Assembly: GCF_036226685.1 (NCBI RefSeq)
Contig: NZ_CP109009.1
Span: 8,583,501 to 8,647,500 of the forward strand
Length of the DNA: 64,000 nt
Reading direction: 5' to 3'
Source of the DNA: Streptomyces sp. NBC_00690
Lineage (GTDB): Bacteria; Actinomycetota; Actinomycetes; Streptomycetales; Streptomycetaceae
The notes beneath the pieces were generated by a model. It did no database searches. It saw only the letters and a list, made by a program, of their open reading frames with translations, and was not told the DNA's origin. The position numbers were made by a program, and so were the translations under genes. This document shows positions 10,125 through 22,475 of the stretch, piece by piece (the stretch's first letter is position 1; each line of letters opens with the position of its first letter).

Positions 10125-11084
10125 GTGAGATGCGGCATGTGGTTGAGGGGTTGGGCCCTTCTGTGGTGCCTCGGCGCACTTCTGTTGCTGTCGGCCTCCC
10201 CTTCGGTGGGGGACGCCCTCGCGGTAGGGGAACGGGACGTCACAGCCGTGCCCGGTCTGACGGCTGCCACCCCCGGGGGGAACACGGATACGGGCAAGGG
10301 AGCCGGTGCCGACGATGTCCACACGGTGTACTGCCTGGCCAAGGAACGGCGCAAGGCGGTTGTGGACGCCGCGGTGCGACTCGGAGTCGCCACCAAGGCG
10401 AAGGGGAAGCCCGAACGGCTCCTTCCATCGCCACCGGGCCCCTCGCCGAAGGCCAGCGATTTCCGGACGGTGGAGGAGTGGGCTGAGGAGCGTAGGGATT
10501 CCTTCCGGCGGGTGTGCGCCGCGGTGATGGAGGCCGATGCCAACGCCTCGTCCGAACCGGGCGCATCGGGGCCGAGCCTGCTGGAGACCTTGGTGGCAGG
10601 GGCCCTGCTGGCCGTGCTCGGCGCGGGGCTCACCCTCCTCGGCGGAGCCAGCGAGCGCTCCTCCGCTCGGCGCAGGGCACAGGCCGACGAGTTGGACGGC
10701 GCGACGATCCGCTTCGCGCTCGCCGCTGAAGGCTATCTGTCCGTGTGGGAGGGGGAGCGCGATGCCTCCTACAGCGAACTCGACTCCACACGGAGTGAGT
10801 TGGTGGTGGCCCTGCGGAGATTCGGAGTGGCGGGCTCCCAGCGTGTTGAGGCCCTCGCCCTCGCCGGTTCCCTTCCGTTCGGCGAGCCCCTGTCGGACCA
10901 GACCGTGGGCGGGCCGCAAGGAAACCGACTCCTCAAGGAACACGAGAAGCAGGCGGAGGCGAATCGACAGCGAACCCTCCTCCAGTCCGCGCTGTCCGAT
11001 GTTGAACGACTCGTCTCGACCTCCCTGCTGAGGCATGTGCGGCGGGTGCTCCCGGGTCGGGCACCGAGGGGTGGGCGCGTATGA
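10125..11084 (+). CDS. Membrane-anchored protein of unknown function
   Basis: A 319-residue protein with an N-terminal signal or anchor segment (about residues 6-30) and a central transmembrane helix (about 148-168, LVAGALLAVLGAGLTLLGG). This leaves an extracytoplasmic domain of about 115 residues and a cytoplasmic helical tail rich in Arg and Glu. The tail looks coiled-coil-like (LLKEHEKQAEANRQRTLLQS). No family is recognised. Its TGA overlaps the ATG of the next NTPase gene (ATGA), so the two are translationally coupled and the membrane protein may recruit that NTPase. The GTG start follows GGGGGA. Confidence 0.7.
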   Translation: MRCGMWLRGWALLWCLGALLLLSASPSVGDALAVGERDVTAVPGLTAATPGGNTDTGKGAGADDVHTVYCLAKERRKAVVDAAVRLGVATKAKGKPERLLPSPPGPSPKASDFRTVEEWAEERRDSFRRVCAAVMEADANASSEPGASGPSLLETLVAGALLAVLGAGLTLLGGASERSSARRRAQADELDGATIRFALAAEGYLSVWEGERDASYSELDSTRSELVVALRRFGVAGSQRVEALALAGSLPFGEPLSDQTVGGPQGNRLLKEHEKQAEANRQRTLLQSALSDVERLVSTSLLRHVRRVLPGRAPRGGRV

Positions 11085-12154
11085 CCCCGGATGAGCCCGT
11101 CAACCCCTTCGGAATCCCGGCCCCCTTCGATGTCTTCGGATCGGGCGAGATCGTCAAGCCGACGGAGGACTGCCCGTTAGCCCCCTGGCGCATTCCCGGG
11201 CATCTCAACCTCTGGGTTCCAGTGGATCACACGGACGAATTGATCAGCTCATTCGCGGCCCGGGGCCCTCAGCCCATGAGAATCGTCTCCAGCGATCCGG
11301 GTACGGGATACGTCGTCGTCGTGAGCGGGTCGACCGGTTCCGGGAAGACGTCCCTGATCAATTGGTGTATTGACGATCTATCGCGCCGGGTCAATGACTA
11401 CCTGGGTCGCTCCAGCGTATTGGAAGGCGGACTGTGGGAGCCGCACAGTGGATATGACGGTGTGCACGTCGTCACCATGCGCGGATTCCGCAACCAGGAC
11501 AACGGATTCAGCCATGAGGACGGCATCACCCTCAGTGTTTCGGATCTGAACCGCAAGATAGCCCAAGAGGTGCTCCGCAAGCTGGTGCGGGCGAAGGTGC
11601 TGACGAAGGAGACGGAGAAGACCGCACTGAGCTTTCGGTTCGTGTCCGACATGTATGCCTTGATCAGCGAGGAACTCGGCATCAGGGACCATGTCCTCAT
11701 GATCGTGGTGCCGCATGTGAACTGGCGGAACCCAAAAGCCAGTCAACAATTCCTGGGTAGCTGTCACAGTCATGCCAAAGCCGGTATCGTCTTCTTTTTG
11801 GAGAGTTCTGGAAGCAGCATCGGTCAGGATGTCGAAGTGGCCTTTCATCAGTATCAGTCGACGCATCTGATGCATCTGGAGATGGGGCAGATCAAGGCCG
11901 ATGACTGGGCTAGCTTCATACGCCAGCGGACGGCGGACGGTGGCCTTCCCGGCAAGGCCGTGAAAATTGCCGACGAAGTCATCTCCACTAGTCCAGAAGA
12001 GCATTTGTACAGCAATGTCAGAGAACTTCAGACATTTCTCTATGCGATCTCCCAGGAGGTCATCGCAGCCGGACAAGAGGAGATCGACATGGACCGACTC
12101 AGTGCATTCGCCCTCAACTTCGGTCCGCCTGACCTCGGCGACCTTGGATACTGA
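11081..12154 (+). CDS. P-loop NTPase, KAP/AAA-like
   Basis: A 357-residue protein with a classical Walker A motif GSTGSGKT (residues 83-90). A hydrophobic strand with HVLMIVVPHVNW near residue 206 probably includes the Walker B position, although no canonical DE pair is present. The C-terminal third is helical and resembles AAA lid domains. It begins within the stop of the membrane-protein gene and lies 36 bases before a second, larger NTPase, suggesting that the three act together. Codon 33 (11177-11179) is TTA. I could not assign a named family. Its position beside a RiPP/STAND locus suggests a sensing or conflict role, which is inference. Confidence 0.75.
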   Translation: MTPDEPVNPFGIPAPFDVFGSGEIVKPTEDCPLAPWRIPGHLNLWVPVDHTDELISSFAARGPQPMRIVSSDPGTGYVVVVSGSTGSGKTSLINWCIDDLSRRVNDYLGRSSVLEGGLWEPHSGYDGVHVVTMRGFRNQDNGFSHEDGITLSVSDLNRKIAQEVLRKLVRAKVLTKETEKTALSFRFVSDMYALISEELGIRDHVLMIVVPHVNWRNPKASQQFLGSCHSHAKAGIVFFLESSGSSIGQDVEVAFHQYQSTHLMHLEMGQIKADDWASFIRQRTADGGLPGKAVKIADEVISTSPEEHLYSNVRELQTFLYAISQEVIAAGQEEIDMDRLSAFALNFGPPDLGDLGY

Positions 12155-12190
12155 CCGGCTCGACCTGTAGCGCGAGGAGGGATCACCTCA

Positions 12191-14581
12191 GTGAGTCGTA
12201 CGGATGACATCTTCCAGGCAGGCAATCCCTTTCCGTTCAGCCCTGTGGTGCAGCTGGGCGCGTTCACCGACGACGTACGGACCGGCTTGGAACCGGCGAC
12301 CCGGCCCGAAACGGTGGCCACCGCGGCGCTCACCCGTGTGCATGACCAGGTCGCCGACTACTTCGCCAGGCGCGAACTGGGAGGTGGGCGCGGGCGAGCG
12401 ATAGCGCTCGTCGGTGAGCTAGGGATGGGCAAGAGTCATCTGGCGCGCGAGGTCGCGGCGGAAGTCCGCTCCCGCAGCACGGTCGAGGCGTTTCCGCCGC
12501 CGCTCTGGGTGATCAATGAACCGAGCATCGCCATGGGCTCGATCTACCGCAACAGGATGATGAGCCTCCGGGACGACCGCAACCGTCGTACCGCCTTCGA
12601 ACAGGTCGTCAGCCATTACCGTGCCGACGTCGCGGCGAACCTGGTGGAAGCGGACGAGTCGCGTCGCTTCGGCCATGCGCGGGAGCAACTCGTCACCGGG
12701 TTGCGTGACCGGTCGTTCGACCCGCAGAAGGTCGAGCAGGCGATCGACCTCGACCGCGAACTGATCCACCGCAACCTCGTCGAGCACCTTCGGCTCGTCA
12801 CCGACCACCGGGGTTTCGCCTCGGCTCTCGCCCTGCTGCTGGAAGGGCCCTACAACCGGGAGGTGTGGGACTGGCTGACCGGCGACCCGCCCTCCCGGTC
12901 GCTGATCGAGCGCGGTGTGTTCTCGTCGATCGACGCCATCGAAGGGGTCTTCGACGCGCTTGCGGTCTTCGGCTTCCTGCACGGTCGGGTGGGCAAGCCC
13001 TACGTCCTCGTCCTCGACGCACTGGAGTACGTCCTGGACTGGCCCCCCGACTCCTACAACGCCTTCATCAACGGCTTCGAGATGTTGGTCAACACCTATG
13101 TCAATCAGGGCGGTCTGCTGGTCTTCTGCATCCGCCCCGAGCCGTGGAGCAGGCTCCCGCGCAGTCTGCACGAGCGCGTGCTCCAGATCTGGCCCACCCG
13201 TTTGGAGCGGGCGGAATGCGGTCGGCTCGTTCGCGCCCACGTCCGTACGCTGCCGTCCGCCGCGCTCCGGGGCGCGGGACTGGACGAGGAGCAGCGCGCG
13301 ACGTACGCACCCTTCGCCACCGGGGCGATCGACGCAGTGGCGGAGCTGTCCGACGGGGTGCCCCGGCAGGCGTTGCGGGTGTGTCACCAGTCCTGGAAGA
13401 TCGCAGCGGCGTCCGACGAACGCATCGCCCACATCGACGCCGATCTGATCCGGGTGGCGGTCCGCCAACTGCATGAACACCGTGACATCGGGGAGGTCCT
13501 CCACTCCGTGGAGAAGACCCTCACGGACGGTCAGTGGCGCCGGGAGCTCCACCCGCCCGAACTGGCGGCCATCACGGGCGACGAAGTCAACGCGATCGCC
13601 TACTGGCTGCGGGTCGACGTGACCTCCGCCATCGGCATCCTCCTGGTGTCGTCCGTACTGGCGGAAGCCGATGTCACCCGCATCACCCGTGTGACGCGCA
13701 CCGTGAGACGCGCCTTCGGAGCGGGCAGTTGCGAAGTGCTGGTCATCTCCAACGGCCATGTACCCCGCACCATGCGCAACCGGGTCGCACAGGCCATCGG
13801 GACCTCGCCACTGGCGGTCGGCGACGCCGGTTTCAGCGAGCAGTTGGCACGTGCCCTGGACGTTCTGGCCGCTCGGATGGAGACCGCACGGCAGCAGACC
13901 GCGTTGGACACCCTGCGGACCCGGCTGAGCACCATGGCGGTCCAACAGGGCGAGGTGCTGCAACGCATGGACCGGCTGGACGGCCAGGTGGAGCGATGGG
14001 GAGCAACGGCACAACCCGTGTCCGTATCCCCTGCGTCCGGTGCCTCCGGGACAGCGGCCGTTGCACTGCCCGCATCGGTGGACCGGCTGTTCACCGTCGC
14101 GAGGGAGGCCCTCGACCTGCTGACCGGCGGCGAGAGCACCACCAGCCTGCGTCAGTCACTCGGTGTTGACACGAGCGGGATGGCCACACCCGACGGCCGA
14201 CCCCACCGCATGGCCTTCACCATGGAACAGTTCCAGACATTGGGCATCACCGCGCTGCTCCGACAGTTGCTGGACGGCTTCCGCGACGGCATCGCGGGCT
14301 GGCTGCGCACGGTGGCGGCCACAGCCGGTCCCGTGCCGACCGCCGCGCAGGAGAACAGCCTCTTCATCGTGTGCAGGAGCTTCGAGATCACCTTCGAAGT
14401 GCTGCCGCCGATTCGGGCCGAACTCCTTCCCGGTGCGCGCCCCACTCAGGAACAAGGCACCCGTGCCGTGCGGCGCACCCAGGTCGGCGATGTCTTCGGA
14501 CGACTCGCCGAAGAGGTTCAGCGGGCCGTCCTGCGTGAAGTCAGCGGCGAAGGCGGCGGGGCGCGGGAGGCAGTTCGCTGA
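12191..14581 (+). CDS. Large AAA/STAND-like ATPase
   Basis: A 796-residue protein. Walker A is GELGMGKS (75-82) and the likely Walker B is PYVLVLDALEYV (about 275). A sensor/arginine region follows (VFCIRPEPWSRLP), then a winged-helix-like middle part (PPELAAITGDEVNAIAYWL). A heptad-rich stretch around residues 555-605 suggests a coiled coil. The C-terminal 180 residues are unrecognised and may be an effector or peptide-binding module. The GTG start is preceded by GAGGAGGG. Its last 41 bases overlap the 3' end of the opposite-strand gene at 14541, so the two transcripts must run into each other. Probably a regulated ATPase of the signalling/conflict type. Confidence 0.75.
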   Translation: MSRTDDIFQAGNPFPFSPVVQLGAFTDDVRTGLEPATRPETVATAALTRVHDQVADYFARRELGGGRGRAIALVGELGMGKSHLAREVAAEVRSRSTVEAFPPPLWVINEPSIAMGSIYRNRMMSLRDDRNRRTAFEQVVSHYRADVAANLVEADESRRFGHAREQLVTGLRDRSFDPQKVEQAIDLDRELIHRNLVEHLRLVTDHRGFASALALLLEGPYNREVWDWLTGDPPSRSLIERGVFSSIDAIEGVFDALAVFGFLHGRVGKPYVLVLDALEYVLDWPPDSYNAFINGFEMLVNTYVNQGGLLVFCIRPEPWSRLPRSLHERVLQIWPTRLERAECGRLVRAHVRTLPSAALRGAGLDEEQRATYAPFATGAIDAVAELSDGVPRQALRVCHQSWKIAAASDERIAHIDADLIRVAVRQLHEHRDIGEVLHSVEKTLTDGQWRRELHPPELAAITGDEVNAIAYWLRVDVTSAIGILLVSSVLAEADVTRITRVTRTVRRAFGAGSCEVLVISNGHVPRTMRNRVAQAIGTSPLAVGDAGFSEQLARALDVLAARMETARQQTALDTLRTRLSTMAVQQGEVLQRMDRLDGQVERWGATAQPVSVSPASGASGTAAVALPASVDRLFTVAREALDLLTGGESTTSLRQSLGVDTSGMATPDGRPHRMAFTMEQFQTLGITALLRQLLDGFRDGIAGWLRTVAATAGPVPTAAQENSLFIVCRSFEITFEVLPPIRAELLPGARPTQEQGTRAVRRTQVGDVFGRLAEEVQRAVLREVSGEGGGAREAVR

Positions 14582-15542
14582 GCACCTCGCGCAACCGTCG
14601 CTCGGCATTGCCGACCTGGTGCTGGTCGAGGGTGACACCGAGCAGGAAGTCGCTGCTGCGCCCCCCGGGCAACCAGTGGATGTAGATGGCCCCCTCCTGG
14701 ACATCGAGCACGAGACGATTGATCGGGTCCCGGGTGATGGACTGGAGGGCGTCCCGCAGTCGTGCGATGTCCGTACGGAGACCTCCCGCGATGTCGCGGT
14801 ACCTCCGGCGCCGCGCATCCGGCTCGATGGCGAGGAATCGCAGGCCCAGGCGCGGACTGTCGAAGGCGTCCCCCACGCATATGAGGTCCCAGCCCCGGTA
14901 GTACGCGAGGTATTGGAGGTCGGTGTGGTTGAGGAAGCGGTGCCAGATTCCCCGCAGCCGTGCCTCCATCGGTTCGTCGACCGCATGGCCGGTGAGGAAC
15001 TTGAGGCCCTCCGTCCCGTCCGGGACGACGTAGGGCACGTCCATGCCGCCCATGTACTCGTTCGGGAGGTTCATCATGGCGCGCAGCTCGGTCACCAGAT
15101 CGTTGAGCTGATCGTCCATCGCATCGACCCGACCACCGTCCACGGTGATCCCGACGATGTGCTGATCCGCCTTCACCCGGCCGCAGTACAGTGCGCCCGT
15201 CGGGGTCGCCACGACCGTGCGCATCAGCTCGCCGGTCCGCAGGGGCGCGAGCGAGCGGTCGATGTCCTGCACACAGCGGACCAGCTGGTGTCCGGGCCGG
15301 CCCTCGGCGTCGATGCGGTGGTCGACCAGCGGACCACTGGGCAGCGGCTCCGCGCCGGGGGCGTGTACGACGAAGTCCAGGATGCCGTTGCTGTAGTGCG
15401 CGACCGACCGTATGGCCGGGCACTGGGCGACGTGCCGCTGACAGAGCTCGCTGATGTCCTCCTGGACCTTGGTGTTCCAGTGCTCCGCGTGCAACGCCAC
15501 CGGGGCATCGGGTGGTCGTCGTTCCGCAGGGATGTCGGTCAT
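14541..15542 (-). CDS. Unrecognised protein in the Fxs-type operon
   Basis: A 333-residue soluble protein with no signal peptide or membrane segment. A central part alternates strands and helices (GALYCGRVKADQHIVGITVD) and recalls roadblock-like folds, but this is weak. ATG 15542 is preferred over the upstream ATG 15593, which would overlap the preceding gene; AAGGAG lies ten bases upstream. It starts 47 bases after the stop of the TPR protein and is probably its operon partner. It is the last gene of the minus-strand operon and overlaps the 12191-14581 gene tail-to-tail by 41 bases. Function unknown; a dedicated partner of the TPR protein is a reasonable guess. Confidence 0.65.
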   Translation of the reverse strand: MTDIPAERRPPDAPVALHAEHWNTKVQEDISELCQRHVAQCPAIRSVAHYSNGILDFVVHAPGAEPLPSGPLVDHRIDAEGRPGHQLVRCVQDIDRSLAPLRTGELMRTVVATPTGALYCGRVKADQHIVGITVDGGRVDAMDDQLNDLVTELRAMMNLPNEYMGGMDVPYVVPDGTEGLKFLTGHAVDEPMEARLRGIWHRFLNHTDLQYLAYYRGWDLICVGDAFDSPRLGLRFLAIEPDARRRRYRDIAGGLRTDIARLRDALQSITRDPINRLVLDVQEGAIYIHWLPGGRSSDFLLGVTLDQHQVGNAERRLREVLSELPPAPRRLRR

Positions 15543-15589
15543 CTCCAGTGCACTCCTTCTCGCTGCCCTCGGCCCGCTCTCCGGCTGTC

Positions 15590-18500
15590 TCACACGGCCC
15601 CGGGCAGTTCCAGATCGATGTCCCCGCGGAGCGCGTCGCCTGCCCGGCTCTCCCCGCTCACCACCGCCAACAGATCCGACAGATTGCGGGCGACGAGCTC
15701 ACGGTACGGATGCTGGGTCAGACCGAGTTCGTCGAACCCCTCCAACGTGGACTCCTCCAGGTCCGCGGCCTCCTCGAACTCTCCCCGCGCCGCGAGGGTG
15801 CCCGCGAGGCTGGACGCGGCGGCCAGCTTCCACGGGTGGGTAGAACCGAGCCGTGCCTCCAACTGCTCCAGTGCGGTGCGCCCTTCCTCCAGGGCCTCGT
15901 CCGGTCGACCGCTTCCGCGTAGATGGACGCCATGGCGCACCCGGCACAGCTGGGTGTAGGGATGATCGGCGCCCAAGGTGTGGCCGAGCGCCTGTAGACA
16001 GATCGCGGACTCCTGGAGTGCCGCCTCGTGCTTGCCCAACTCATAGAGGTCGATCGCGAGGCTGTAGCGGGTGCGCAGCGTCACGATGTGCCACTCGCCG
16101 AGGTACCGCAGACAGTCCGCCAGCACCCGGCCGTCACGCTCATGGGCCCGTCCGGTCCGCCCGAAGCGCCGCTCGCCCACCGCGAGCCCGTTCTCAGCGC
16201 GCAACACATCGGCGTCCGGCGCCGACGAAGGGGCCATCGCACTGCGGTACGCAAGGAACTCCCGCAGCAGAGTGGACGACTCCCGGTTCTGCCCGAGCGC
16301 CCGGTGGGTGCCCGCGAGGGTGTTGGCGATCTGCCAGGCGCGCGGGTCGTCCGGTCCGCCGATGGCCCGTCGGCGGTTGAACTGGTCCTGGAGCAACTGG
16401 AGAGCGGACGGCGCATCGCCCGCCAATGCCTCGCTGAGCGCCAGATTGTGTTCGACCTGGTCCGTCGCCCGGTGCTGGGGCCCCAGCAGCGCCAAGAGGC
16501 CCCGGTGGACGTGGCGCCCTTCGAAGAGGGCGTCGGTGAAGTGCCCGTCCGCCCGCAGGATCGCACCGTACGCATCGGCACAGAGCAGGGTCCGCGGGTG
16601 GTGGGTGCCGAACGAGGCCCGGTATCCGCGCAGGGCGACGCGTGCGTGTCGACTGGCCCCGGGATACTCCGAACTGTTGCGCAACGCACGGGCGAGCAGC
16701 GTCTGGAGCCTCAAGTACTCAGCGGAGTTTGGAGAGTTGGCCCAGGCAGACTCGGCCCGACGCCCCAACTCCAGCGCCTCGGCCAGCCGCAGTACGTCGT
16801 CGGAGCGGGTGAGCACCCCGAGGTGGTCGAGGAGCCAGCGCTGTACCGGCGGTCGCTGGTCCTCCCAGATCCTCAGCGCGGTCAGCTGTCCCGTCTGCGA
16901 GGCGCTCAGCTGGCGCTCGCCGCCCTGCCCTCCGTTGGTCCCCACGGCAGGGCCGGCGTCCTGCGCCGCGGTGGCGCCGGGGGAGTACCCGCCGACCACG
17001 GCTCGTAGCTCACGCTCTCGGACCTTGCGCTCCGTGTCGCCCATGCGGGTCAACACCGCTTCGCGCAGCACCTGGTGCATTCGTACCGGGCGCCCCGGGC
17101 GGGCGAAGTCGACCTCGATCAGACCGAGGCCCGACAGCGCCCACAGCGCCACGTCCACCATGAGCTCATCGCTGACCATGGCGGCGGGCTCCGGTGGACC
17201 CACGGCTCCTCCGGTGCGGTGCGCGAGCGCCCACAGCATCTGTGGGGAGCGCAGTAGGGCAAGATCGGCGCCGGCACCGGTCAGCAGCGCACAGCACTCC
17301 AACACCCATCCCAGCGCCGTGGCGCCACCGTGCTCCTGCGCCCATGCCTGGGCTGCGTCGGTCAGTCCGATGGAGCGGACGGCCACCTCCAGCACCACCC
17401 GTGGCAGCGGCACCTTCCTCTCGTGCGCCAATAGATCGGTCTGGGCGGTCGCAAACGCCTGGTCGAAGCGTTCGGCAGCCCGCAGGACGGCTTCGTTCCG
17501 CGAACGGTTCTCCGCCTCGTGACGGGCGGCGTCCATATCGAGCCAGGCGGCGGCGAGTGCGACCGTCAGCGGTAGATGACCAACCGTCTGGCCGATCTGC
17601 TCGGAGAGGTGGCTGGGCAGTTGGTCCACCGCTGATGCCAGCAGTGCACGGCTCTCCTCCGCGGAGAAGGGCGCCACCTCCACCACGTGCCCGGACGCGA
17701 CCTGATCACCGAGCCTGGCGGTGATCAGGACATGGCCCCCGCCACGACTGGTCGGGATCAGGTTCTGCGCCGACAGGGCCGCGGCGTCGCGCACGTCGTC
17801 GTACACGAGGAGCCAATCCCCGCTGCCCGGACTGCCGAGATGGGCCAGGACCCGGGGCACGGGGTCCCCGACCGTGGGCAGGCCCAGGCGTTCGGCCAGG
17901 GAGGTGAGACCTCGGCGAACCGAAGCGGGGCCGTCGCCCGGCACCCACCACACCAGGTCGTAGTCGCCCCGGAAGCGATGGCAGAACTCCAGGGCGATCT
18001 GGCTCTTGCCGATGCCCGGCTGCCCGAGCAGCAGACCGCAACTGCGCGAGACGGCGGCTGCGGCCAAGGTCTCCCGCACTTCTTCGAAGAGGGCGTCCCG
18101 CCCGATGAAGGCGTTGTTGCGTGGCCACAGATTGTTGTCACGCGGCATCCGGGGAAAGCGGTGAACGGATTCGGACAATGCGGGACCGGGCAGATGCAGA
18201 CTCTCCCGAAGCGCGATCACAGCCTCCGCCTCCGAGACGTGCCGCATCACGATCTGCTCGTGGTGGGAGAGCTCCCGCGGCAGGACCTCCTCATCGACCA
18301 GCACCATCCGTACATCCGGATGCGAGAGATCGGCCAACAGTTCGGCCTTCGAGCTCTCCACCCCCAGTGGCGAGACGACGAGCAGCATCGCCCCGGGCAG
18401 CGGAGGCTCTCCGATGAAGGGGTCGAACCCGCTCCGCGAGACCTCGACCCCGCACGACTCCAGCTGGCCGGCGATCCACTCCGCCCAGGCGATGTGCCGA

Positions 18501-19318
18501 GGTGTGTGGAGCAGCGTGACCCGGCTCAACTCCACCGGCTGGGTGCGGGCGAGTTCGTCGGCGAGTTGGACGAAGCGGGGTCGCAGCCCGCCGTCGGAGC
18601 CCGGGTCCTCCTCCTGCACGGCCAGTCGATCGAGTTGGGCGTAGAGCGACTCGTACGGGAACTCGACGTAGTGGGCACCCGCTCCGTCGCTCAGCTCTTC
18701 GAAGTTCTCCCGCACCAGCGCCCGGGCGGTGCGCAGTTGGTCGTACATCCGACTGTCCGCGCGCAGACCGATGGCGAGCACTCCGATCTGCCCCACCGCT
18801 CGTTGTCTGACCCTGCGGGCGAGTGCCGCCGCGTTCTCCACCCGCCAGGAGTTGAGGGGGAAGCAGGTGGCGAGGACGTGGGGCAGCCCGGCCAGGACGG
18901 TGTACTCCTCGTCATGGCGCGGCACGGGGGCGTCGATGAGGACCTCGTCGTAGCGCAGGAGGACCGACGGGTCGAGCCGGGTGAGGGCGGGCACGTCGTC
19001 GAGCGTCAGGAGGTCGACGCGCAGGGTGCGGTTGTGGAGGGAGACGTCCCATATCGAAGGCGGCGGAAGCGCGGCCCCCGATGATCTGGTCGAATCCGGG
19101 TCGCTGTTGGGCGTGCCCGCGGAGAGCGAACCGAGATAGTGAAAGGCCCTGATGTCCGACTGCCGGGTGTCCACGATCAGCACACGACGCCCCGATTCGG
19201 CCATGACCAGGGCGACATTGACCACCGTCGTGGTCTGCCCGATGTTCTCGGCGGTAGAGCAGAAGAGGGTCACCCGGGTACGGCCGTTGTCACGGCCGGC
19301 ATCGGACAAGATCGACAT
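15590..19318 (-). CDS. fxsT: FxSxx-COOH system TPR protein (ParA-like/TIR/NB-ARC/TPR)
   Basis: A 1242-residue multidomain protein of the type encoded with FxSxx-COOH RiPPs. The order is an N-terminal ParA/SIMIBI-like domain (to about 265), a TIR-like segment (about 265-370, IAWAEWIAGQLESCGVEV), an NB-ARC ATPase with Walker A GQPGIGKS (about 432-439) and VYDDVRD as Walker B, and TPR repeats from about 820 to the end. The ParA-like P-loop is degenerate: STAENIGQTTT replaces the usual KGGxGRT. ATG 19318 is preferred because GGAG stands nine bases before it; GTG 19345 and ATG 19333 are alternatives. It follows the precursor gene by about 60 bases. It probably senses or regulates rather than modifies the peptide. 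Confidence 0.85.
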   Translation of the reverse strand: MSILSDAGRDNGRTRVTLFCSTAENIGQTTTVVNVALVMAESGRRVLIVDTRQSDIRAFHYLGSLSAGTPNSDPDSTRSSGAALPPPSIWDVSLHNRTLRVDLLTLDDVPALTRLDPSVLLRYDEVLIDAPVPRHDEEYTVLAGLPHVLATCFPLNSWRVENAAALARRVRQRAVGQIGVLAIGLRADSRMYDQLRTARALVRENFEELSDGAGAHYVEFPYESLYAQLDRLAVQEEDPGSDGGLRPRFVQLADELARTQPVELSRVTLLHTPRHIAWAEWIAGQLESCGVEVSRSGFDPFIGEPPLPGAMLLVVSPLGVESSKAELLADLSHPDVRMVLVDEEVLPRELSHHEQIVMRHVSEAEAVIALRESLHLPGPALSESVHRFPRMPRDNNLWPRNNAFIGRDALFEEVRETLAAAAVSRSCGLLLGQPGIGKSQIALEFCHRFRGDYDLVWWVPGDGPASVRRGLTSLAERLGLPTVGDPVPRVLAHLGSPGSGDWLLVYDDVRDAAALSAQNLIPTSRGGGHVLITARLGDQVASGHVVEVAPFSAEESRALLASAVDQLPSHLSEQIGQTVGHLPLTVALAAAWLDMDAARHEAENRSRNEAVLRAAERFDQAFATAQTDLLAHERKVPLPRVVLEVAVRSIGLTDAAQAWAQEHGGATALGWVLECCALLTGAGADLALLRSPQMLWALAHRTGGAVGPPEPAAMVSDELMVDVALWALSGLGLIEVDFARPGRPVRMHQVLREAVLTRMGDTERKVRERELRAVVGGYSPGATAAQDAGPAVGTNGGQGGERQLSASQTGQLTALRIWEDQRPPVQRWLLDHLGVLTRSDDVLRLAEALELGRRAESAWANSPNSAEYLRLQTLLARALRNSSEYPGASRHARVALRGYRASFGTHHPRTLLCADAYGAILRADGHFTDALFEGRHVHRGLLALLGPQHRATDQVEHNLALSEALAGDAPSALQLLQDQFNRRRAIGGPDDPRAWQIANTLAGTHRALGQNRESSTLLREFLAYRSAMAPSSAPDADVLRAENGLAVGERRFGRTGRAHERDGRVLADCLRYLGEWHIVTLRTRYSLAIDLYELGKHEAALQESAICLQALGHTLGADHPYTQLCRVRHGVHLRGSGRPDEALEEGRTALEQLEARLGSTHPWKLAAASSLAGTLAARGEFEEAADLEESTLEGFDELGLTQHPYRELVARNLSDLLAVVSGESRAGDALRGDIDLELPGAV

Positions 19319-19380
19319 CGTCGTTGGCTCCATGGTCGGGATCACCGGGGCCGGGGATCTCTGCGGGATCTGTGAAGGCG

Positions 19381-19596
19381 TCAGATGAGGTCCTGATAGT
19401 CCGCCGTGAAGATGCGGTCCGGCCGTTCGGCCACTTCATGGAGTCTGCGCAGGGTGAAACCCAACGCGGATTGGGGAAGTTGTGCGATCTTTTCAAATGG
19501 CAGTCCAGAAAGATCGACCAATGGGGAATCGAGATCATTCGGTGCCTCGGCCGGCTCCGTCATCGGGAGATCGACCACCCTTCTCGCGAGATTCAT
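19381..19596 (-). CDS. fxsA: FxsA-like RiPP precursor with Tyr-x-Asp C-terminus
   Basis: A 71-residue peptide (60 residues if it starts at ATG 19563). The core of the FxsA family is plain: SPLVDLSGLPFEKIAQL, then SALGFTLRRL. The family normally ends Phe-x-Ser-x-x-COOH, the three-residue motif modified by FxsB. Here the end is A-D-Y-Q-D-L-I, so Tyr replaces Phe and Asp replaces Ser at the same distance from the C-terminus. Both candidate starts have weak ribosome sites. A TACAAT box at 19634-19639 would place a transcription start about 30 bases upstream of the first ATG. It is the first gene of the operon with the TPR protein and is divergent from the maturase. Confidence 0.82.
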   Translation of the reverse strand: MNLARRVVDLPMTEPAEAPNDLDSPLVDLSGLPFEKIAQLPQSALGFTLRRLHEVAERPDRIFTADYQDLI

Positions 19597-19633
19597 AGAA
19601 ACCGGTCACAAGGCGGGGGCAACACGCGCGTAC

Positions 19634-19639
19634 ATTGTA
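19634..19639 (-). promoter_or_regulatory. Candidate -10 box of the precursor operon
   Basis: TACAAT on the minus strand, ending 38 bases before the first ATG of the precursor. No convincing -35 element was found at the right distance. The placement is plausible but unproven. Confidence 0.4.
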
Positions 19640-19730
19640 ACGCTGAGTCAGGTCGCTGCGCCAGGTTCCTGGAGAACCGACGGACGCCCTACGGAAGCGG
19701 GCATTCCTGTACGACGGCCGATTCCTGACC

Positions 19731-19760
19731 TTGACGGGCCAATCAGCCGCTGAAAATACT
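19731..19760 (+). promoter_or_regulatory. Candidate promoter of the radical SAM gene
   Basis: TTGACG (19731-19736), an 18-base spacer and AATACT (19755-19760) form a good housekeeping-type promoter. Transcription would start near 19767, giving a leader of about 55 bases before GTG 19822. Confidence 0.55.
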
Positions 19761-19821
19761 GAATCCACGCCATCCGTCGGACTGGGCGGGCCAGAGCTCC
19801 TTCACGAGAGGTGCACGCACC

Positions 19822-21021
19822 GTGCAGTACGTGAATCCAGCCCGACCGGAAGAGATTCCGTTCCGCAATTTCGTGATCAAAATCCATGGCAGATGTGATC
19901 TCGCCTGTGACTATTGTTATATGTACCGCAGCGTCGATCAGGTCTGGCGCACACAACCGCGCACGATGTCACCCGCGGTGATGGAGTCCACAGCGCGGCG
20001 CATCGGCGAACATGCCCGTGCCCATGGACTCGGCGCCTTGGGAATCGTGCTGCACGGCGGTGAACCGCTGCTGGCGGGAAAGGAATTCATCAGCAGTGCC
20101 GTGAGAGCGATTCGCCGCGAAGTGGATGAGACGGTTCAGCTCACCTATGCGATTCAGACCAATGGGGTCCGGCTCGACGAGGAATACCTCGAACTCTTCG
20201 CCGAACTCCACGTCAGGGTCGGCATCAGCATGGACGGTGACCGCACCGCACACGACCGCCATCGCCGACGAGCCGACGGCCGCGGTAGTCATGCCCAGGT
20301 GGCCGCGGCGGTGGACCGGATCGCCGAAGGCCCCTACCGCCCCCTGTTCAGCGGGCTCTTGTGCACCATCGACCTCGACAACGACCCGGTGCGCACCTAT
20401 CGCGCGCTCCTGCGCCACCGCCCGCCCATGGTGGATTTTCTGCTTCCGCACGGCAACTGGTCCACGCCGCCACCGGGGCGGAATCCAGCCAGCGCCGACA
20501 CCCCGTATGCCGACTGGCTGATCGAAGTGTTCGAACAGTGGTACGGCGCACCGGTCCAGGAGACCCGGGTGAGAATCCTGGAGCAGATCGTCGCACTGCT
20601 CCTCGGTGGACGCGCCGTCGTGGAGGGACTCGGTCTGGAGCCCTTGGGCTACGTCGTCATCGAGACCGACGGCTCCATCAGCCAGGACGACACCCTGCGC
20701 ACGACCTATCCGGGCGCCGCCGCCACCGCGCTGCACGTACTGAAAGACCCCTTCGACCGGGCACTGAACCAATCCGCACTGGTGGCGAGGCGCTCAGGAC
20801 TCGCCGCACTCGCGACCGGTTGCCAAAGCTGCCGGCTACGACGGGTCTGCGGCGGTGGACACTACGCCCACCGCTATCGAGCGGACGGCACCGGCTTCGT
20901 CAATCCCAGTGTCTACTGCCCTGATCTGACCGCGCTCATCGACCATGTGCGGCGACGGGTGGCGCAGGATGTCGACCGACTCCGCGCGGCCCCTGCACCC
21001 ACCGGAACGCCTCCCCTATGA
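19822..21021 (+). CDS. fxsB: FxsB-family radical SAM/SPASM peptide maturase
   Basis: A 399-residue radical SAM enzyme. The CxxxCxxC cluster motif is C25-D-L-A-C29-D-Y-C32 with the usual aromatic residue after it. LHGGEPLL is the SAM-binding GGEP motif. The C-terminal SPASM-like region has GCQSCRLRRVCGGGHYAHRY and a final VYCPDL, as in FxsB maturases. FxsB enzymes install a cyclophane or related carbon-carbon crosslink in the C-terminal Phe-x-Ser motif of FxsA peptides. Here the likely substrate is the divergent Tyr-x-Asp peptide. The GTG start has AGAGG upstream. Its TGA overlaps the ATG of the hydroxylase gene, so the two are translationally coupled. Confidence 0.92.
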   Translation: MQYVNPARPEEIPFRNFVIKIHGRCDLACDYCYMYRSVDQVWRTQPRTMSPAVMESTARRIGEHARAHGLGALGIVLHGGEPLLAGKEFISSAVRAIRREVDETVQLTYAIQTNGVRLDEEYLELFAELHVRVGISMDGDRTAHDRHRRRADGRGSHAQVAAAVDRIAEGPYRPLFSGLLCTIDLDNDPVRTYRALLRHRPPMVDFLLPHGNWSTPPPGRNPASADTPYADWLIEVFEQWYGAPVQETRVRILEQIVALLLGGRAVVEGLGLEPLGYVVIETDGSISQDDTLRTTYPGAAATALHVLKDPFDRALNQSALVARRSGLAALATGCQSCRLRRVCGGGHYAHRYRADGTGFVNPSVYCPDLTALIDHVRRRVAQDVDRLRAAPAPTGTPPL

Positions 21022-22475
21022 AAACTCCGCACACTCCGCACACTCCGCACACTCCGCACACTCCGCACACTCCGCATGCTCCACATGCTTCATACCCTCC
21101 GCACACTCCGCACGCTCTGCACGAGCCCGCCCCGCCCCACCACCGGCTCGACGGCGATGTGTTCCACGAGATCGCATCCGGGAACGGTGGCCCTCGGGCA
21201 CTCTCCCTGCTGCGCAACGCTGAGTACAGTCGGCGGGTCATCCTCGCCCGGGCCGTCGTTGAACAGGCCGAACGGCGAGGCGGGGCGCTCGCCGCACAGG
21301 CGCGCGACGCATGGTCACTGCTGGGTGCGGCGCACCGCCGGGCCCCGTCCGTGGTCCATGAGATGTTGACGTACCCCTCGGTCGGGCCCGCCCAACTCTG
21401 GGCCCTCAACCAACTGACGACCGATCGATCCACGGCGGGTCCACCGCCCTCGGTCGATGCCCTGACCGCAGTGGCGGCGGTAGCAGCCGTACGTACCGGG
21501 CTGCCGGCCGCCGTCCGGTTGACAGTCCACAGCGGGGGGCTGCTCCTGCCGTCGTTGGGGCGTGCCCGATTCCCCCTGGCATCCGACGGCGAACCGGCCC
21601 TGGTGTCGACCACATCCGGTTCGCCGACGGTTCAGTGCGGCGCCACGACGGTGCGGATCCCCAGGGAACGGTCCGACCACGCCCTCGCACACGAGGATGC
21701 CGACATGCCCTGGCTGCCCCTGCGTGAACTTCTCGCTCCGGCCGACGATCCGGCACTCCTGCTGGACGACCTCGATCCGCACCTTCTTCCCGGCGGTGGG
21801 CATCCAGGGAGGTTGACCGTGTGTCAGTGGCAGCGGTGGCGGTGTGTCTTCGAAGAGGCGTGGCAACTCCTGCACACCGTTCATCCGGGGCAGGCGGTCG
21901 AGGCCCGATCTGCATACCGTGCGATCGTGCCGACCGGGGCACCCACCGACCGCAATATCTCCAGCAGTTCGGACGAGGCGTTCGGTTGCTCGGTTCTCTC
22001 GGTCCCGCGTTCGCCCCTCGATCTGGCCCTGGCGCTGGTGCACGAACTCCAGCACAACAAGCTCAGCGCACTCACGCACCTGGTCGATCTCGTCGTACGG
22101 GAATCCGGCGCACTCTTCTACGCGCCCTGGCGCGAGGACCCCCGCCCCCCGGGCGGCCTCTTGCACGGTGTGTACGCACACATGGGAGTGGCCCAGTTCT
22201 GGCGACGGCAGCGCCGGGCGTCGAAGGACGGAGCTACCGCCTGGCGGGCCGTGGTGGAGTTCGCGCGGTGGCGGGACGCAGCCAAGGAGGCCAACGAGAC
22301 GCTGTTGGCGGGCGGATGTCTCACCGAAGCCGGACGGAGATTCGCCGAGCAGATGCGCAGCACACTTGCGGAACTGGCCCAGGAGCCGGTGCCCCGTGCG
22401 GCGACGGCACGGGCGAAGGAACTCGGTGACGAGCACCGGGATCGCTGGCTCCTTGACCACGGTGCGCGATGGTGA
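21018..22475 (+). CDS. HExxH-type putative peptide beta-hydroxylase
   Basis: A 485-residue protein of the family annotated as HEXXH-motif peptide modification protein (2-oxoglutarate-dependent, aKG-HExxH type). The metal motif is HELQH (H342, E343, H346) within a helix. It should hydroxylate the crosslinked RiPP at a beta-carbon, working after or with the radical SAM enzyme, to which it is coupled by ATGA overlap. The recognisable domain starts near residue 43. Before it lies a strange repeat (His-Thr-Pro five times in a row, then variants), encoded by a 9-base tandem repeat. The repeat may be a recent expansion, or the true start could be later. Terminated by the 19-bp hairpin at 22573. Confidence 0.88.
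   Translation: MKTPHTPHTPHTPHTPHTPHAPHASYPPHTPHALHEPAPPHHRLDGDVFHEIASGNGGPRALSLLRNAEYSRRVILARAVVEQAERRGGALAAQARDAWSLLGAAHRRAPSVVHEMLTYPSVGPAQLWALNQLTTDRSTAGPPPSVDALTAVAAVAAVRTGLPAAVRLTVHSGGLLLPSLGRARFPLASDGEPALVSTTSGSPTVQCGATTVRIPRERSDHALAHEDADMPWLPLRELLAPADDPALLLDDLDPHLLPGGGHPGRLTVCQWQRWRCVFEEAWQLLHTVHPGQAVEARSAYRAIVPTGAPTDRNISSSSDEAFGCSVLSVPRSPLDLALALVHELQHNKLSALTHLVDLVVRESGALFYAPWREDPRPPGGLLHGVYAHMGVAQFWRRQRRASKDGATAWRAVVEFARWRDAAKEANETLLAGGCLTEAGRRFAEQMRSTLAELAQEPVPRAATARAKELGDEHRDRWLLDHGARW
21030..21116 (+). repeat. 9-base tandem repeat encoding His-Thr-Pro
   Basis: Five perfect copies of CACACTCCG (21030-21074) are followed by four diverged or intact units to about 21116. The unit is three codons, so copy-number changes alter protein length without shifting frame. 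It lies at the very start of the HExxH protein. Confidence 0.9.

Follow-up and report, generated by a model that had tools for sequence, protein, structure and literature searches.

Among the cyclophane-forming maturases treated in the cited passages of PMC11002830, YxdB makes a link from C3 of Tyr to the beta-carbon of Asp (attributed there to Sugiyama 2022), HaaB joins His to Ala, and YhhB joins Tyr and His to Arg. The alpha-ketoglutarate (aKG)-HExxH enzyme ChlH beta-hydroxylates Asp and His on a cyclophane peptide, and PflC and PosC carry out Gln hydroxylation and backbone cleavage (PMC12636437, in the passages cited here). Residues reported to be hydroxylated by members of the HExxH family include His, Asp, Phe, Gln and Pro (PMC13060819, in the part cited). 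The cited portion of PMC7159879 (eLife 2020) describes peptide systems whose tails are of FxSxx, RxD, acidic or FtsH-associated type, and standalone systems in which an AP-ATPase carries an inactive MinD-like domain, the peptide being proposed as a toxin or signal. Here we describe a related locus in a 64,000-nucleotide stretch (the window) of the Streptomyces sp. NBC_00690 contig NZ_CP109009.1, where a precursor peptide with a Tyr-x-Asp tail adjoins the genes for an FxsB-type radical S-adenosylmethionine (SAM) maturase and an HExxH protein. On balance we favour reading it as an FxsB-type triceptide locus, complete in its genes and altered in its core motif, with a product predicted from the genes alone.

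The locus resembles FxsA/FxsB systems (TIGR04268/TIGR04269) in its FxsA-like leader, its FxsB protein above the curated cut-off, and its HExxH and tetratricopeptide repeat (TPR) partner genes. It differs from them in its Tyr-x-Asp tail, in a precursor that falls below the TIGR04268 cut-off, and in the divergent upstream position of the precursor in the branch to which it belongs. The radical SAM/SPASM maturase (19822..21021, plus strand) scores 458.9 bits against TIGR04269 (cut-off 370) and carries CxxxCxxC at residues 25-32. The aKG-HExxH-type peptide beta-hydroxylase (21018..22475, plus strand), with HELQH encoded at 22041-22055, scores 177.1 bits against TIGR04267 (cut-off 40), and its ATG overlaps the maturase stop. 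These scores bear out the earlier note, which had called this a ribosomally synthesized and post-translationally modified peptide locus of the FxsA/FxsB/HExxH type. In a 105-row alignment, 69 columns reach 97% conservation or more, and the maturase retains every one of them. Cysteines 25, 29, 32, 334, 337 and 343 are intact, covering the radical SAM CxxxCxxC motif and the conserved C-terminal cysteines.

The precursor gene (19381..19596, minus strand) is separated from the maturase gene by a divergent intergenic region of 225 bases (19597..19821), so that it adjoins an FxsB gene as expected of an FxSxx-COOH precursor. Its open reading frame (ORF) of 71 aa reads ...SPLVDLSGLPFEKIAQLPQSALGFTLRRLHEVAERPDRIFTADYQDLI and ends in FTADYQDLI. 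Both SPLVDLSGLP and SALGFTLRRL are present, in agreement with the FxsA-like peptide of 60 to 71 residues proposed before. Translation probably begins at the internal ATG at 19563, which would give 60 aa, because this codon aligns with a Met in four of the 16 other precursor alignment rows (L009, L006, L007 and L008) and because the database protein P0002 begins there. Counted from the C-terminus, Tyr is fifth and Asp third, where an FxSxx-COOH peptide has Phe and Ser; the substitutions fall exactly where the earlier note had placed them. They lie in a tail box, F-T-A-D-Y-Q-D (19390..19410, minus strand), delimited by sequence and column conservation and comprising a conserved upstream Phe, the putative ring residue Tyr and its putative partner residue Asp. 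TIGR04268 gives the peptide 16.1 bits against a cut-off of 28, with an alignment spanning model positions 1-34 of 44; the leader therefore fits the model and the tail does not. A Pfam search of the peptide returned no family. Used alone as a protein-database query, it retrieved two proteins: P0001 (98% identical, with a shorter start), which is probably its own entry, and P0002 (83% identical), which comes from a different source and has the FTADYQDLI tail unchanged. A chance ORF was considered and rejected, since P0002 keeps this tail and all 26 maturases of the branch described below have a homologous precursor nearby.

By analogy with the described systems, the FxsA-like leader would recruit the maturase, which would abstract a beta hydrogen from the third residue of the motif, Asp, and couple that carbon to the Tyr ring. 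The expected result is a Tyr-Gln-Asp three-residue cyclophane, 2 Da lighter than the unmodified peptide. The coupled HExxH enzyme would then beta-hydroxylate a residue of the tail (+16 Da), most likely an Asp, and the modified peptide may act with the MinD-like/TPR protein encoded nearby as a signal or trigger, which is the weakest step of the proposal. We infer the ring, the hydroxylation site, the order of the two reactions and the role with the TPR protein from these likenesses. The predicted crosslink is the one already reported for YxdB in the cited literature; YxdB (WP_226048651.1) is set beside this locus by its chemistry. The earlier suggestion that the product would be unexpected is not supported, as a Tyr-Asp link is known from YxdB and beta-hydroxylation of Asp and His from an aKG-HExxH enzyme, according to the passages cited.

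The same genome encodes three FxsB proteins above the TIGR04269 cut-off. One, a fused FxsB in an 861-aa open frame, adjoins a precursor ending in FNSAL, and another, at 2.69 Mb (C1; L003 and L125), lies with a precursor ending in WQSAL, a TPR protein and a protein related to the 350-aa one described below. A TIGR04268 search of the genome returned nothing above the cut-off, and the FNSAL precursor was identified by inspecting its locus. The existence of this canonical peptide raises the idea of a decayed YQDLI precursor, with the window maturase truly serving FNSAL. We rejected this idea as highly improbable: the FNSAL precursor has its own fused FxsB beside it, the YQDLI tail is identical in P0002, and Tyr or His motifs run through the whole branch. 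The earlier note had stated that consistent pairing of homologues of this maturase with canonical Phe-x-Ser precursors elsewhere in their genomes would count against its proposal. No such pairing was found, as the other two FxsB genes have FNSAL and WQSAL precursors of their own and the nearest relatives of the window maturase have Tyr or His precursors.

Comparison loci were the best 80 of 332 relatives from a contig search, together with the loci of the best matches in 392 same-genus genomes. The window maturase matched 277 of these 392 genomes at E 0.001, the weakest matches being distant radical SAM relatives only. Searching with an iterated profile gave FxsA-like ORFs at 80 of 116 loci, the window and duplicate loci included. 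The maturase tree was built from 105 rows by a quick method, with SH-like approximate likelihood ratio test (SH-aLRT) support only. Five identical rows were omitted, as were five loci duplicating others already included (L002, L086, L116, L118 and L119) and the fused FxsB of the same genome (L001) and L104, whose best-scoring pieces were too short. In this tree the window maturase falls in a 23-row group (support 99) within a 26-row group (support 82) that adds two Sphaerisporangium rows and one Nonomuraea row.

All 26 maturases of this branch have a detected homologous precursor close by. Counted by eye on the precursor alignment, the ring position is aromatic in every case (His in 18, Tyr in seven, Phe in one), while the partner position is acidic in 21 (Glu in 19, Asp in two). 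Outside the branch, the 48 precursors counted have Phe (44), Trp (2) or Tyr (2) at the ring position and Ser (26), Asn (15), Ala (5) or Gln (2) at the partner position. None has an acid there, in a tally that rests on 48 of 79 maturases (31 had no detected precursor) and on a regular expression that favoured Ser, Asn, Ala and Gln at the partner position, the printed alternatives being checked by eye. The TPR gene is present at all 26 branch loci and the HExxH gene at 25. Across Streptomyces and relatives, the branch has thus kept precursor, FxsB maturase, HExxH and TPR genes together, and the Tyr/Asp swap is, as judged from sequence, a property of the whole branch rather than a one-off.

A protein-database search with a 17-row precursor profile, in which scoring covered the 7993 candidates with most shared words, gave 76 matches. 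Of these, 63 (P0001-P0062 and P0075) were accepted as belonging to the branch, and 13 (P0063-P0074 and P0076) with Phe-type tails, judged by eye, were set aside. The 63 comprise 50 HxE, eight FxE, three YxE and two YxD tails, so Tyr-x-Asp is rare within a type dominated by His-x-Glu; the Gln and Lys partner forms of the genome loci were not among these matches. At seven branch loci (L006-L011 and L019) the precursor extends 5 to 14 residues beyond the partner residue, and a C-terminal position of the motif is therefore not required. The two Tyr cases outside the branch, L097 (AAYNS) and L110 (AAYDS), lie far from the window in the maturase tree, for which reason Tyr at the ring position probably has more than one origin among FxsB systems. 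Branch and remaining maturases differ at columns 253 (F to L), 277 (Y), 289 (V/S to D), 293 (K to R) and five others; within one clade, such differences cannot be told apart from shared ancestry. Among the literature matches listed, no Tyr- or His-x-acid FxsA branch is described, an absence that carries little weight as key primary papers lie outside that coverage. Likewise, the cited portion of PMC7159879 names no such tail type.

The HExxH protein could instead be a protease that frees the C-terminal peptide, as proposed for such proteins in the cited part of PMC7159879, and its HELQH motif is in keeping with this. We think this improbable, because the NCBIfam family whose cut-off it far exceeds is named aKG-HExxH-type peptide beta-hydroxylase and because it aligns with ChlH, a reported hydroxylase (PMC12636437, passages cited). 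Aligned to the solved structures 22nu and 8s5f (ChlH), it keeps both HExxH and PWRxDxRP, the match to ChlH being limited to residues 310-449. Cleavage may also occur, given that PflC is reported to have proteolytic activity without a leader, besides backbone cleavage (PMC12636437, passages cited). With the hydroxylase reading preferred, the locus resembles ChlB/ChlH and the fused radical SAM/aKG-HExxH proteins (Morishita 2024, as cited in PMC12636437) in pairing a cyclophane maturase with an aKG-HExxH enzyme, and sequence matches were obtained to the solved relatives 9gm3 and 8s5f. It differs from them in having two separate, overlapping genes. The HExxH protein begins with a TPH-rich stretch encoded by 11 copies of a 9-bp repeat (window positions 21024-21122); this repeat is absent from the homologue starts compared, several of which read TPxPHR.

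Two further loci, L120 (genome G044) and L164 (genome G343), have the precursor, TPR, 350-aa and HExxH genes, the last with HETQH intact, and tblastn found no maturase match in their 16-kb stretches. Across the whole genomes, FxsB is absent from G044 and present once in G343, at a different place. Their precursors end in FLL[NS]TDTPDD, in which Leu replaces the upstream Phe and Thr replaces Tyr, with an Asp retained just before the ring position and another at the partner position. Four database clusters share this tail, among them P0080, which is probably G044 itself. Since the TPR tree nests the two loci inside the branch (support 99 and 100) and the HExxH tree sets them next to the window and L009 (support 89), it is most likely that this lineage lost its maturase. 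Loss of the aromatic residues together with the maturase, while the Asp residues and the HExxH gene were kept, is what would be expected if the aromatic residues serve the maturase and Asp serves the HExxH enzyme. HExxH peptide systems without a maturase are not new in general, as PMC7159879, in the part cited, links the radical SAM gene with the FxSxx type.

The chief uncertainty concerns the upstream Phe, which may mark a second ring position or be a recognition residue. It lies four residues before the ring residue in 24 of 26 branch precursors and in 62 of the 63 branch database proteins, and it could form a ring of its own (F-T-A in the window peptide, F-V-T in the large subgroup with His), giving two adjacent rings or the first ring only. 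Its loss along with Tyr in the maturase-less lineage agrees with this possibility, as does the description of ChlB as a multiple cyclophane synthase in a reference cited by PMC12636437. On chemical grounds, a link at the beta-carbon of the third residue of this unit, Thr in most tails, would create a fully substituted carbon; moreover, the Phe itself is replaced by Ile in L011 and by Ser in L052, and recognition alone may account for the Phe. We regard an upstream ring, in addition or instead, as possible though doubtful.

The single Tyr-Gln-Asp ring remains our preferred reading because the maturase, HExxH and TPR proteins pass their curated cut-offs, every one of the 26 branch precursors has an aromatic residue at the ring position, P0002 shares the tail unchanged, maturase and aromatic residues were lost together, and YxdB and ChlH provide precedents. 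Several observations weigh against it. The partner residue is not acidic in five of 26 precursors (three Gln, one Lys and one Ser), the upstream Phe rivals the ring motif in conservation and disappears along with the Tyr, and the flanks of L011 have no HExxH gene despite the motif in its tail. Maturase loss is also a single evolutionary event, and ChlH is reported to require a preinstalled cyclophane (PMC12636437, passages cited), which fits badly with an HExxH gene kept without a maturase.

On the other side of the precursor lies the gene for the FxSxx-system TPR protein (15590..19345, minus strand; NF040586 564.3 bits, cut-off 300), followed by that for a 350-aa protein with a predicted MglB/roadblock-like domain (14541..15593, minus strand), whose start and the TPR gene stop share 4 nt. 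This arrangement suggests two divergent units, the left one with the precursor, TPR and 350-aa genes and the right one with the maturase and HExxH genes. In Pfam, the TPR protein matches TPR_12 above the cut-off and, below it, NB-ARC (16 of 23.5 bits) and TIR_2 (12.7 of 28 bits), pointing to possible NB-ARC and TIR regions. TIR was not among the folds listed for its N-terminus, which is uninformative either way. That N-terminus has a MinD/ParA fold. A P-loop normally carries the Walker Lys; here it reads AENIGQTTT, without the usual Lys, and the domain is predicted to be inactive. The locus thereby resembles the standalone peptide-processing systems of PMC7159879, which, in the part cited, combine an HExxH gene, an FxSxx-like peptide and an AP-ATPase-type TPR protein with an inactive MinD/ParA-like domain; the word roadblock is absent from that text.

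The 350-aa protein has no Pfam or NCBIfam match, and relatives of it occur in 15 of 16 other loci tested. Its MglB/roadblock-like assignment rests on a fold prediction whose VIA-align rows span residues 36-176 only, and a second roadblock-like copy, judged from secondary structure, is a guess. In PADLOC, the maturase matches viperin models, as a radical SAM relative; at E 0.01 no model matched the TPR, 350-aa or HExxH protein. Convergent with the left unit are two adjoining P-loop NTPase-like genes at window positions 11081-14581 (plus strand), with KAP_NTPase above and AAA_16 below the cut-off.

What is possibly new here is the His/Tyr-x-Glu/Asp branch, its conserved upstream Phe, perhaps a second ring, and the maturase-less offshoot. 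We tentatively suggest, as a less probable extension, that the branch shifted from Phe-x-Ser to His/Tyr-x-Glu/Asp rings, possibly as two adjacent rings (F-x-T/A and H/Y-x-E/D), that one lineage dropped maturase and aromatic residues to leave a peptide worked by the HExxH enzyme alone, and that the peptides are cues for a MinD-like/TPR/roadblock module. If true, the His-Glu link would be a crosslink unnamed in the cited literature passages. FxsB-like genes are common, yet triceptide bioactivities have not been elucidated according to the cited part of PMC12257519. The maturase-less lineage is a control supplied by nature, distinguishing the needs of the maturase (the aromatic residues) from those of the HExxH and TPR proteins (the leader and Asp), and a single genome with three FxsB enzymes and Phe, Trp and Tyr precursors is a natural set for the study of ring specificity.

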